This document shows positions 9,153-16,429 of a stretch of 23,958 nt of DNA, piece by piece (position 1 is the first letter of the stretch; each line of letters opens with the position of its first letter). Below the pieces are notes generated by a model. It was not told the origin of the DNA, did no database searches, and was given only the letters and a program-made list of their open reading frames with translations. The DNA comes from a virus: positions 1 through 23,958 of IMG/VR virus record IMGVR_UViG_3300009169_000099. One strand, given 5' to 3'. The position numbers were made by a program, and so were the translations under genes.

Positions 9153-9157
9153 CGTAA

Positions 9158-9190
9158 ATTGGGGAATGTAACATTATTTTACTATATTTG
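9158..9190 (+). promoter_or_regulatory. Promoter for the HNH gene at 9221, lying inside the terminator hairpin
   Basis: TATATTTG at 9183-9190 is a perfect -7 box. ATTG at 9158-9161 is a -33 box one base off consensus with 21 nt spacing, and shares the TTGG core with the other promoters. The -7 box occupies the loop and first bases of the 3' arm of the hairpin at 9161-9201, so local transcripts (start about 9194-9197) cannot re-form it. Confidence 0.6.
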
Positions 9191-9206
9191 TTACATTCCC
9201 CTTTTT
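9161..9206 (+). terminator. Terminator of the RII operon (hairpin plus T run)
   Basis: GGGGAATGTAACA (9161-9173) pairs perfectly with TGTTACATTCCCC (9189-9201), 13 pairs, loop 15 nt, followed by TTTTT at 9202-9206. It lies 9 nt after the RIIB-like stop. The loop is longer than usual for a rho-independent terminator because it also carries a promoter -7 box. Confidence 0.7.
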
Positions 9207-9220
9207 ATAAACAATTGATT

Positions 9221-9598
9221 ATGAGGAAGAAAGCAGCAGCTAAGAAACCAAAAACACAGAAGCCACGTAACGCTGGTACGATGACAGATGTACAGTTTTT
9301 TCAGTGGATAAGACAAATATTAAGAAAATCTTCCCTTTATTGGAAACCTATTTCTCAAGTCAGAAAAGAAGCACAAGTTCCTTATAAAGGACCTAATAAG
9401 AGAAGGAAATATTCTTATATTTGTAGTAAGTGTGGTAAAGAATATCCAGCAACTGAAATAAATGTACATCATAAAATAGAATGTGGTACTTTAAAGTCAT
9501 TTGAAGATTTACCAGGTTTTGTAGAACGTCTTTTTTGTGAAAAAGAGTTGCTTTGTGTATTATGTAAAACATGCCATGATAAGGAGCATGGAAAATAA
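9221..9598 (+). CDS. HNH endonuclease-like zinc protein
   Basis: A 125-aa basic protein. The ATG at 9221 is chosen; the longer frame from the TTG at 9188 would start inside the terminator hairpin. The N-terminus is Lys-rich (RKKAAAKKPKTQKPR). The HNH fold is indicated by CSKC (C68, C71), VHHKI (H83, H84), and a closing CVLCKTCH...H cluster (C112, C115, C118, H119, H123) that supplies zinc and catalytic-site residues. LPGFVERLFCEKELLC joins the two. It lacks NUMOD or other homing DNA-binding repeats, so it could be a resident phage nuclease rather than a mobile one. It has its own promoter and sits between the RII operon and another endonuclease. Confidence 0.72.
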   Translation: MRKKAAAKKPKTQKPRNAGTMTDVQFFQWIRQILRKSSLYWKPISQVRKEAQVPYKGPNKRRKYSYICSKCGKEYPATEINVHHKIECGTLKSFEDLPGFVERLFCEKELLCVLCKTCHDKEHGK

Positions 9599-9599
9599 A

Positions 9600-9631
9600 T
9601 TTGGTAGATTGATTCATTTGCTTTATATTTA
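9600..9631 (+). promoter_or_regulatory. Bacteroidota-type promoter for the endonuclease at 9737
   Basis: TTTG at 9600-9603 (extended TTTGGTA), 20 nt, TATATTTA at 9624-9631 (one mismatch at the last base). The predicted start point, about 9635-9638, coincides with the first base of the long inverted repeat at 9636. The leader would be about 100 nt, unlike the very short leaders of the other endonuclease genes. Confidence 0.6.
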
Positions 9632-9635
9632 TATT

Positions 9636-9727
9636 GCTTATGTATCTATCTATTATTAAACTTATTAGTCCTCAACTTCAGGGTATTTATCGACAGATAG
9701 ATACATAAGCACCTGATTTTGAGGACT
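9636..9727 (+). promoter_or_regulatory. Interleaved inverted repeats: potential large pseudoknot in a 5' leader
   Basis: Stem 1: GCTTATGTATCTATCT (9636-9651) with AGATAGATACATAAGC (9695-9710), 16 perfect pairs. Stem 2: AGTCCTCAA (9667-9675), inside the loop of stem 1, with TTGAGGACT (9719-9727), 9 perfect pairs, extended inward by TTCAGG-side pairs (9678-9682 with 9712-9716, 5 pairs). The order a-b-a'-b' is that of an H-type pseudoknot or of two alternative stems. The 3' arm of stem 2 ends 9 nt before the ATG at 9737, so folding could block ribosome entry. Confidence 0.65.
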
Positions 9728-9736
9728 TTATGTTTT

Positions 9737-10453
9737 ATGAAAATCTTATACCTCTATGTTAAAGAACTTCCAGATGGATTAAAATATCTTGGAACAACTT
9801 CTAAAAATCCTTATAAATATAAAGGAAGTGGAAAATATTGGAAAAGACATATCAAGAAGCATAATTATAAACTTAATGACATTAAAACTACTATACTTTT
9901 TTCAACATATTGTAGAAATACTTTAAAAGAAAAAGGTCTTTATTACTCAAAACTTTACAATGTAGTAGAAGATTCTTGTTGGGCAAATTTAATTCCAGAA
10001 TCTGGAGAAAGTAGCACATTAGGATATAAACCTACAGAAGAAACAAAACAAAAGTATCTTCCAAAAATATCTCATAAAGTAAGAAGAATTAAAGATGATA
10101 AAATATATAATTCTGTAAATGAAGCAGCAAGAGAAAATAATTTATATTCAAGTCATCTTAGACATAGATTAAAATTAAACGATGTTTCAATAGGATTTGA
10201 ATATGTTGATAAAAATTTAGAAGATAAAGCTAAAAGTTTAAAAAATAAAAGAATTCAAGATCAAAATTACAGAAAAATAAAAAATATAAACAAAACTAGC
10301 CGTTGTTTAGGTGTTTCTTGGGATAAACAAAAACAAAAATGGGTAGTTGCAATAAGGATAAATGGTAAAAAAGTATTTTTAGGTAGGTATAATAACGAAG
10401 AAGATGCTTGTAAAGTTTATCAGACTGAATTAATTAATTTAAAAACAAAATAA
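9737..10453 (+). CDS. GIY-YIG-like homing endonuclease with NUMOD1 and AP2 domains
   Basis: The N-terminal 90 residues match the phage nuclease type that reads YLYVK...GLKYLGTTSKNP...YKGSGKYW (residues 5-35), a GIY-YIG variant in which the strands are YLY and YLG and the basic helix is KYWKRHIKKH. The middle part (about 115-150, RIKDDKIYNSVNEAARENN) looks like a NUMOD1 DNA-binding segment. The C-terminus (189-233, CLGVSWDKQKQKWVV, then FLGRYNNEEDA) is an AP2-type DNA-binding domain, common in homing endonucleases. The ATG at 9737 is chosen; an out-of-frame ATG at 9730 opens a 10-codon overlapping uORF. The gene lies 6 nt before thyX, has its own promoter, and a structured leader precedes it. 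Very AT-rich. Confidence 0.78.
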   Translation: MKILYLYVKELPDGLKYLGTTSKNPYKYKGSGKYWKRHIKKHNYKLNDIKTTILFSTYCRNTLKEKGLYYSKLYNVVEDSCWANLIPESGESSTLGYKPTEETKQKYLPKISHKVRRIKDDKIYNSVNEAARENNLYSSHLRHRLKLNDVSIGFEYVDKNLEDKAKSLKNKRIQDQNYRKIKNINKTSRCLGVSWDKQKQKWVVAIRINGKKVFLGRYNNEEDACKVYQTELINLKTK

Positions 10454-14747: not shown

Positions 14748-15720
14748 ATGGATTTAGGATTAGATGCTTTATCGAAAATAACTGTGTTTTCGAAATATGC
14801 AAAATACAACCCAGAACTGAAACGACGAGAAACCTGGGAAGAAATTGTTGACAGGTATCAGGGTATGATGATTAAGAAATATCCTAAACTGAAAGATGCA
14901 ATTGTTGATAGTGCAAGAATGATTAGGGATAAAAAGGTGCTTCCTTCAATGAGAGCTCTCCAGTTTGCTGGACCAGCTGCTGAAGTTAACAACTCTAGAA
15001 TCTACAACTGTTGCTATCTTCCTATTGACAGCCTTTACAGCTTTAGTGAAACAATGTTTCTTCTTCTTGGAGGAACAGGTGTAGGCTATTCTGTACAAAA
15101 GCACCATGTTGACCAGCTTCCAGCAATATCAAAGCCAACCAAGAAGCGTAACTATCTGATTGAAGATTCTATCATGGGCTGGGCTGATGCTGTTAAAGTG
15201 CTTATGAAATCATATACAGGATCAGGAAGCCTTCCTATATTTGATTTTCGTGCTATTCGTGAGAAAGGTGCAAGACTTGTTACAGCTGGTGGTAAAGCTC
15301 CTGGTCCAGAACCTCTTAAAATCTGTTTAACACATGTTCAAGCTATTCTTGACAGAAAGAAAGAAGGAGAAAAACTTTCTCCTATAGAATGTCATGATAT
15401 TCTTTGTCACATTGCTAATAGCGTTCTTGCTGGTGGTATTCGTAGGAGTGCAATGATTGCTCTGTTTAGTCACGACGATGAGGAAATGCTCACATGCAAA
15501 TACGGTAATTGGTATGAACTCAATGAACAAAGAGGACGTGCAAACAATTCAGCTGTACTTGAAAGAGGTGCTATTGATGAGGGTAAATTCTATGATATTT
15601 GGAATAGGATAGAAGCTTCTGGTTCTGGTGAACCTGGTATCTATTGGACTAACAATAAAGATTGGGGAACTAATCCATGTTGTGAGATTGCACTACGACC
15701 TTATCAGTTCTGTAATCTCT
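14748..15720 (+). CDS. nrdJ: Adenosylcobalamin-dependent ribonucleotide reductase, exon 1
   Basis: First 324 residues and one base of a 617-aa class II ribonucleoside triphosphate reductase, which makes dNTPs with a B12-derived thiyl radical. The spacing of active-site residues matches the Lactobacillus enzyme: N309, C311 (radical Cys), E313 and C322 correspond to N406, C408, E410 and C419 there, and NCC (87-89) matches the partner Cys near position 119. LLLGGTGVGYSVQ and NSVLAGGIRRSAM are typical core segments. The apparent TAA stop after FCNL is intron sequence. A group I intron interrupts codon 325; joining to exon 2 at 16451 restores the frame (973 + 881 nt = 618 codons) and gives FCNLCEVNVSD. 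Confidence 0.9.
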
Positions 15721-15919
15721 AAACTACCTCATGGAGATTTAAAACCCTGAGAATTGCTGGGAACTCTGACCACATAATGGTGAAGACAATCAGCAGCCGA
15801 GCCTAGAAATAGGAAGGTTCAACGACTAGTCGAAAGACGTACACTCAAGTGAGTGGAAGCACAGGGCCCCGAAAGGGTGATGATATAGTCTGAACAATAT
15901 AGAAATATATTGATGAAAA

Positions 15920-15951
15920 TTTGGAAATCTCGAATAAGTTTTGTAACTTTA
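15920..15951 (+). promoter_or_regulatory. Promoter for the intron HNH gene
   Basis: TTTG (15920-15923, extended TTTGGAA), 20 nt, TAACTTTA (15944-15951, one mismatch at the last base). The predicted start, about 15955-15958, is at the boundary between the loop and the 3' arm of the hairpin covering the HNH start codon, so local RNA would lack the 5' arm. Confidence 0.6.
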
Positions 15952-15969
15952 AAAAAATACAAAACTTAT
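15934..15969 (+). promoter_or_regulatory. Hairpin sequestering the intron HNH start codon
   Basis: ATAAGTTTTGTA (15934-15945) pairs perfectly with TACAAAACTTAT (15958-15969), 12 pairs, loop 12 nt. The 3' arm takes in the A and T of the ATG at 15968. Pre-mRNA of the reductase would hide the start; RNA from the internal promoter would not. In T4 the intron gene of I-TevI is controlled by the same principle. Confidence 0.7.
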
Positions 15970-16429
15970 GAAAACAAATCGAGAAGGTTATAAAATATCA
16001 GAGACAGAACGAGAATGTACTAATTGTGGTACAATGTTTCTTAAAACCTCTAAAACAGTAACTCTTTGTAATAAATGTAATTCAGAACGAGTAAAATGTA
16101 CAAGTCCTGAATCAAAAATGTTCCAAAGAGCAAAAGGAAGAGCTAAACGAAAAAAATTAGACTTCAACTTAACTGTTAAAGATATTGTTATACCAAAATA
16201 TTGTCCAATTCTAGGAATAGAATTAGTTTGTAAAAGTGGAACATCAGGAGGTCAGAAAAAATCTCCTGCTTTAGATAGAATAAATTCAATGAGGGGCTAT
16301 ACTAAAGACAATGTGCAAGTGATTAGTCATCTAGCAAATATGATGAAAAGTCACGCCACTGAAGAAGAACTAATAACATTTGCAAATTGGATAATCAGAA
16401 ATATTCCGAAGGATTCTGGTCAAGAGTAA
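15968..16429 (+). CDS. Intron-encoded HNH homing endonuclease
   Basis: A 153-aa endonuclease that would spread the intron to intronless reductase genes. The N-terminal zinc finger has CTNC (17-20) and CNKC (34-37). The nuclease part reads CPILGIEL (79-86), then SPALDRINSMRGYTKDNVQVIS (99-120) and HLANMMKSHATEEEL (121-135). This is the phage HNH-type core with DRI..GY..NV.V and AN.MK motifs. The gene lies in the peripheral P9 region, so the intron core stays outside the coding part, but its final codons and TAA overlap the 3' hairpin of the intron. The start is ATG at 15968, partly inside an inverted repeat with a built-in promoter. Confidence 0.85.
   Translation: MKTNREGYKISETERECTNCGTMFLKTSKTVTLCNKCNSERVKCTSPESKMFQRAKGRAKRKKLDFNLTVKDIVIPKYCPILGIELVCKSGTSGGQKKSPALDRINSMRGYTKDNVQVISHLANMMKSHATEEELITFANWIIRNIPKDSGQE

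Follow-up and report, generated by a model that had tools for sequence, protein, structure and literature searches.

A family of leader RNAs with mutually complementary loops precedes unrelated endonuclease genes in uncultured phages

RNA regulation of phage homing endonucleases has so far been described gene by gene, in T4-like phages. The hairpins of this type belong to I-TevI, I-TevII, I-TevIII, segB and Aeh1 mobE (PMC2988022), and intrinsic terminators lie at the 5' end of T4 mobE and segF, with a measured termination of about 30% for mobE (PMC2988022). Here we describe one RNA architecture whose conservation lies in covariation and not in sequence, and which is common to unrelated endonuclease families and to several phage groups. 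It defines a previously undescribed family of leader RNAs in several uncultured phages with gene signals resembling those of Bacteroidota, and the family is cis-acting on the evidence of its own-loop pairing.

The window, that is, the whole 23,958-nt stretch of DNA that was analysed and whose numbering is used throughout, is a fragment of an uncultured phage with rIIA, rIIB, ThyX and UvsX-like genes. Only one of its 26 genes has a Shine-Dalgarno site; the sequence before the AUG is A-rich, as it also is for the other genes of leader-bearing phages. That the hosts are Bacteroidota is inferred only from the promoter type and the absence of Shine-Dalgarno sites. The leader cassette directly follows a small HNH gene, whose stop is at 9598, and the promoter and the interlocked structure (9635-9727) precede the ATG at 9737 (Table 1). 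The GIY-YIG assignment of the ORF that follows rests on the motif YLY..KYLG..YKYKGSG and on alignment; an AlphaFold/Foldseek search supported its AP2 domain and nothing else. Behind the HNH gene lies a hotspot of endonuclease insertion and loss. At L060:6045-6200 a decayed endonuclease remnant follows the HNH gene, with the promoter start and a C-terminal KTAGGFIWKY tail left. A strong hairpin with a T-run lies past rIIB, just 5' of the HNH gene (9155-9207), and the same terminator-before-AUG arrangement is seen at L022:2251-2334. An open frame at 9588-9659 (MENKFGRLIHLLYIYIAYVSIYY, then a stop) overlaps the HNH stop and ends between arms a and b; it is also open in two relatives (L097 and L105), with poorly conserved residues, and may possibly encode a leader peptide.

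Table 1. Positions of the leader, its flanking genes and its promoter in the window, and loci with the promoter motif
Feature	Positions	Strand	Sequence or remarks
Upstream gene, small HNH protein	9221-9598	+	PHROG 1985; by synteny follows rIIB in most related phages
Promoter	9600-9631	+	TTTGGTA-N17-TATATTTA; Bacteroidota-type -33 and -7 boxes; predicted start about 9635
Arm a	9635-9651	+	TGCTTATGTATCTATCT; 17 perfect pairs with 9695-9711
Linker between a and b	9652-9666	+	ATTATTAAACTTATT; (A/T)AAA(C/A)TTATT conserved in family alignments
Arm b, 5' strand of H2	9667-9682	+	AGTCCTCAA-ct-TCAGG; pairs with 9712-9727
Alternative inner hairpin	9683-9691/9696-9704, loop 9692-9695 (span 9683-9704)	+	Minimum-energy fold; rivals arm a for a'
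Arm a'	9695-9711	+	Partner of arm a; counterpart of the H2 apical kissing loop in other members
Arm b', 3' strand of H2	9712-9727	+	Pairs with arm b
U-rich spacer, H2 to AUG	9728-9736	+	TTATGTTTT (window tail)
Downstream ORF, GIY-YIG-like free-standing endonuclease with C-terminal AP2 DNA-binding domain	9737-10453	+	PHROG endonuclease matches; Pfam AP2
Promoter motif sites	752, 2897, 9600, 15920; also L017, L018, L022, L059, L074, L097, L105		

The initial annotation, made from sequence alone, had proposed perfect inverted repeats interlocked in the order a-b-a'-b', with a first stem of 16 pairs and a second of 9 pairs (+5) whose last arm ends 9 nt before the ATG. Order and perfection of the repeats held, with a:a' one base longer, at 17 pairs, and the second stem held exactly: AGTCCTCAA (9667-9675) forms 9 perfect pairs with 9719-9727, followed after a 2 x 2 mismatch by 5 pairs (9678-9682 with 9712-9716). 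Two further claims were also upheld, that the predicted transcript start (about 9635) coincides with the first base of the structure, and that two such stems would be rare in random sequence. When the whole window was scanned for interlocked perfect pairs of at least 10 and at least 8, a:a' with b:b' was the sole instance, and none of 200 first-order Markov shuffles of the window contained interlocked pairs of at least 14 and at least 9.

The minimum-energy fold is a nested hairpin and not a pseudoknot, as it combines b:b' with the inner hairpin (z = -4.9). The a:a' conformer is nearly as stable, at -27.9 kcal/mol against -29.3 to -31 kcal/mol. The loop of the inner hairpin reads GACA in the window and GAGA in L097 and L105. 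Classical coaxial H-type stacking seems unlikely, by geometric reasoning only, because stem 1 has 17 bp and only 0-7 nt separate a' from b'. Possibly, the window form is a non-classical pseudoknot or an alternating structure.

Leaders of the window type are borne by L097 (contig 3300032311_000459) and L105 (3300042691_002606), the only real matches when core-sequence patterns were run on IMG/VR; the rest were chance. Homologues with an uncompensated change in one arm would have refuted the structure, as the initial annotation had put it, and this test was run. In L105, two adjacent a:a' pairs are changed on both sides (9645/9701 from U-A to C-G; 9646/9700 from C-G to U-A), and the same changes preserve the inner hairpin via G-U/A-U exchange; only the outermost pairs fray, from 17 to 15. 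In distant members the interaction is retained despite wholly different sequence. The L097 leader is 93.5% identical to that of the window, and the ORF behind it is an unrelated, different GIY-YIG-like gene. At L004 and L005 the endonuclease is 64% identical, leader and promoter are missing, and the start of the endonuclease gene overlaps the stop of the HNH gene.

The first distant members, the L170 group (L170-175), were found in a z-score screen of regions upstream of GIY-YIG genes, and share with the window the flanks TTATTRGTCC ... GGACYTT around different stem sequences. A pattern made from those flanks and run on IMG/VR led to many further members, after chance matches (L241-243, L246, L247, L253 and L267) had been dropped. 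The family amounts to about 15 distinct sequences, with up to 7 copies per phage record. The usual layout is a hairpin H1 with a 7-nt loop, a linker ending in TTATT, a hairpin H2 with a 7-nt loop, a U-tract and the AUG. The H1 and H2 loops form a perfect 7-bp complement in all 15 cognate pairs and in none of the 206 non-cognate pairs. The distance from loop to loop is 46-52 nt, and 68 in the window and L105. In an alignment of four sequences, five of the seven kissing pairs are changed on both sides and 95.7% of cells are paired; for the whole structure, 0/500 shuffles reach its score. The base of H2 covaries as well (GGTCC/GGACC, GACCT/AGGTC, AGCCC/GGGCT, GGCTC/GAGCC, AGGGC/GCCCT), and the tails after H2 are 84% U and run 9-11 nt to the AUG in nearly all members. 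One member, L270, has lost H1, and its orphan H2 loop alone remains. The 52.7-kb phage record G014 has several copies (as many as 7 by two models), with a separate loop pair in each copy read. We infer action in cis because each of the up to 7 copies per record has a loop pair of its own.

A covariance model (R1) built from four sequences, excluding the window, L097 and L105, recovers the window at 9629-9739 (E 0.003), L097 (1e-4) and L105 (0.04), although these E-values are rough. In these three sequences the 5' strand of H1 is missing, and the 5' arm that is left forms 15-17 bp with an enlarged H2 loop; in the window and L105 the H1 stem is 0 bp, so that the complementary segment is not in a closed hairpin loop. 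Arm a is the counterpart of the H1 kissing loop plus the 3' strand of H1, and the 5' segment GCTTATG and the H2 loop CATAAGC of the window are perfect complements, stretched to 17 bp. As in the family, a linker ending in TTATT precedes H2 of the window and a U-rich tail and the AUG follow it (9652-9739). Since the window lineage lacks the H1 5' strand and its arm pairs with the H2 loop, the pseudoknot is that lineage's version of the kissing interaction. The window is a derived variant of the family, in which H1 was lost and the pairing lengthened to 17 bp. The proposal of a pseudoknot leader of an endonuclease gene is supported with refinements: the family form usually has two hairpins with kissing 7-nt loops, a U-tract follows H2, and the leader is common to unrelated endonucleases. 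We conclude from sequence, pairing, covariation, family and position that the interlocked repeats are an evolutionarily conserved RNA leader.

The generic z-score screen of GIY-YIG upstream regions showed no overall enrichment (13% versus 10% at z < -3), and shuffles of the 5' part only, with any complement allowed, gave weak significance per element (p 0.002-0.3 for most). The decisive statistic is the comparison of cognate with non-cognate loops and not the per-element shuffles. For the full set of 11 type-1 sequences, pair counts by fixed column were left unused because some rows have their loops displaced by one column.

Most members start no more than about 17 nt past the stop codon of an upstream gene (GroEL, dUTPase, HNH and others). 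Most of the ORFs downstream are homing endonucleases of unrelated kinds, namely GIY-YIG with NUMOD3, HNH, and HNH_3 with NUMOD3 or NUMOD4; a GC-richer subtype stands before replication-initiation or methyltransferase genes. At L170:1800-2880 a GIY-YIG cassette lies behind the 3' end of a phage GroEL gene, and a GroEL-like tail, SGDGLQGMGGMM, closes its endonuclease ORF, as though the cassette had supplied a replacement C-terminus for GroEL and pushed out the original.

The endonuclease has a dedicated promoter; the primary sigma factor of flavobacteria has TAnnTTTG as its -7 box (PMC9723704). Across 1.44 Mb of related phage sequence, taken on both strands and with the window included, the motif TTTGGWA-N17-TAnnTTTR has 12 distinct sites, and all 12 are immediately 5' of an ORF readable as a GIY-YIG or HNH endonuclease. 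The interval from promoter to AUG is usually near empty, and it holds the RNA leader in three cases and a small ORF in two relatives. The promoter occurs without the leader in L018, where it directly abuts the ATG, in L059 and before three other endonucleases of the window. At L022:3636-3820 and L074:6035-6220, a short ribbon-helix-helix-like ORF (about 44 aa) lies between promoter and GIY-YIG ORF and overlaps the start of the latter by ATGA. It is possible, on resemblance only and without a family-library search, that this ORF is a protein counterpart of the RNA leader. Elsewhere in the window, a group I intron (RF00028, 67 bits; match 15680-15912) occupies 15680-16429 in the ribonucleotide reductase gene, and the HNH ORF after it has its own TTTGG promoter at 15920. 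The ORF at 799-1557, which has an HNH-like WHVDHILP motif and no Pfam match, has a TTTGG promoter at 752.

Neither the window nor other members matched Rfam 15 at the gathering threshold or at E <=1 with a plausible structure, in agreement with the earlier statement that no RNA family could be named. Sub-threshold matches to U12 and to a miRNA were rejected as implausible. The group I intron already mentioned is the only RF00028 match in the window, and there is none at the leader site. DNA similarity searches found no homologue in 50,697 named phages (window, L170, L249 and L252 leaders) or in 72,556 plasmids (L249 leader). A further model, R2, run with stricter filters on 395 Bacteroidota genomes that included no positive control, found none. 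Another 96 related phage records gave no match, the 4 records that matched in that run being members already, and a pattern search of genome contigs gave 21 matches, all chance. Absence from the 395 genomes and the 96 records makes the distribution look sporadic and phage-borne.

What the leader does is inferred, in the absence of transcript, 3'-end or expression data. We propose, as the likeliest reading, a cis-acting brake, in which H2 and the U-tract serve as a terminator or attenuator tuned by the loop pairing; this proposal could as readily prove wrong as right. H2 with its U-tract would form an intrinsic terminator right before the start codon, most transcripts would stop there, and endonuclease output would therefore be low. 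The loop-loop pairing, or arm-loop pairing in the window, would compete with H2 or lock it and so set the amount of read-through. The inner hairpin of the window and its 5' arm vie for one strand at near-equal energy, which would suit a switch. Expression control, termination as its step and a role for the kissing pairing are all inferred, and the direction of that role, lock or antiterminator, is undetermined. That the promoter is followed interchangeably by nothing, by a ribbon-helix-helix-like ORF or by the RNA, that the ORF is swapped behind the leader and that the position is fixed argue for a control module. Most members have a GC-rich stem base with a U-tract at once after it, as in an intrinsic terminator, and U-rich tails, against A-rich sequence before the AUG elsewhere, favour a terminator. 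The T4 mobE and segF terminators (PMC2988022) are a precedent for it. Against it, the window tail is a weaker U-tract than in other members, and L270 has only its orphan H2 loop. A simple terminator scan allowing no bulges did not flag the window H2. Moreover, a terminator needs no constant distance to the AUG, so the constant spacing fits translational control as well. Two other forms of control were rejected: autoregulation by the endonuclease itself, because one leader can have different ORFs behind it, and Shine-Dalgarno sequestration, because these phages have no such sites. Arm b' contains GAGG; the other members have no GAGG there.

The main rival, which remains possible, is translational repression: the kissing or pseudoknot pairing would lock H2, and H2, lengthened by weak A/U pairs as far as the AUG, would block initiation without termination. 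In its favour, the distance from H2 to the AUG is constant in nearly all members, and the predicted outer A/U pairs extend to the AUG in several. In Flavobacterium, structure between -20 and +20 and an A at -3 tune initiation (PMC6847099), and the leader tails lack A at that position. The repression of T4 I-TevI, segB and Aeh1 mobE by RNA structures (PMC2988022) also counts for this reading. Against it, the outer A/U pairs show no covariation, a U-tract straight after a GC-rich stem base is a terminator trait, and classical sequestration of a ribosome-binding site is inapplicable given how few genes have a Shine-Dalgarno site. Of the functions first suggested for the repeats, a translational switch is thus neither established nor excluded against a transcriptional attenuator; a protein-binding DNA operator is disfavoured, and a homing footprint is only indirectly true, in that the leader sits in endonuclease cassettes.

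It is unlikely that the leader is mainly an insulator that provides the transcript of the interrupted upstream gene with a new 3' end and so lowers the cost of endonuclease insertion, the endonuclease being expressed by read-through or from its own promoter. The start of the element close behind the upstream stop codon and the likeness of H2 and U-tract to a terminator speak for it. However, it leaves the conserved kissing interaction and the constant distance to the downstream AUG unexplained, and in the window, L097 and type-2 members the promoter lies within the insertion, 5' of the structure. Still less likely is a trans-acting product, a small RNA of about 95 nt that would work at another site or in the service of the endonuclease. 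A promoter with two hairpins and a U-tract does resemble a stand-alone small-RNA gene, but each copy is perfectly complementary solely to itself (0/206 cross pairs), the AUG distance is constant and, the downstream proteins being unrelated, no common RNA partner protein is expected. A DNA-level feature, that is, inverted operator sites or a recombination footprint whose RNA has no role, is suggested by dyads perfect in DNA at a hotspot of insertion and loss but all but excluded, as the loops are complementary just within a copy, vary freely between copies and have no common DNA sequence, the inner hairpin is preserved by G-U pairs, and orientation and AUG spacing are fixed.

A bolder reading, somewhat less likely than not, is also compatible with the data. 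The leader would be a portable RNA module with self-specific kissing loops, spread together with unrelated homing endonucleases, and with some genes for replication and methylases, among the phages of Bacteroidota-type hosts; every copy would evolve its own loop pair, so that several could act in a genome without cross-talk, and the attenuator or switch would sense the state of infection. The family suggests that selfish endonuclease genes carry their own RNA brake along. Gene control in Bacteroidota differs from the E. coli model, and the orthogonal 7-nt loop pairs offer a testable, ready-made set of cis-acting parts for these bacteria.

Like the T4-type hairpins (PMC2988022), the leader is a cis RNA structure directly 5' of the start of a phage homing endonuclease, with a promoter at or inside the structure. 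Those hairpins are single, particular to their gene, and hide a Shine-Dalgarno site (PMC2988022), whereas the leader is one family, with a kissing-loop or pseudoknot interaction and a U-tract, before many endonucleases of unrelated kinds, in phages that make no use of Shine-Dalgarno sites. As with the T4 mobE and segF terminators in the 5' coding region (PMC2988022), a stem and U-tract are proposed to limit endonuclease transcripts, but the leader stem lies 5' of the AUG and its loop pairs with that of an upstream hairpin. The put antiterminator of phage HK022 is likewise a two-hairpin RNA at the start of a phage transcript; its hairpins are nearly adjacent and act on distant terminators, and put RNAs are not known to form kissing loops. 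Unlike put, the leader ends in a U-tract at the next AUG. RNA I and RNA II of ColE1 resemble the leader in their 7-nt kissing loops, with fully complementary apical loops. The ColE1 loops, however, pair between two RNAs, and those of the leader pair within one.
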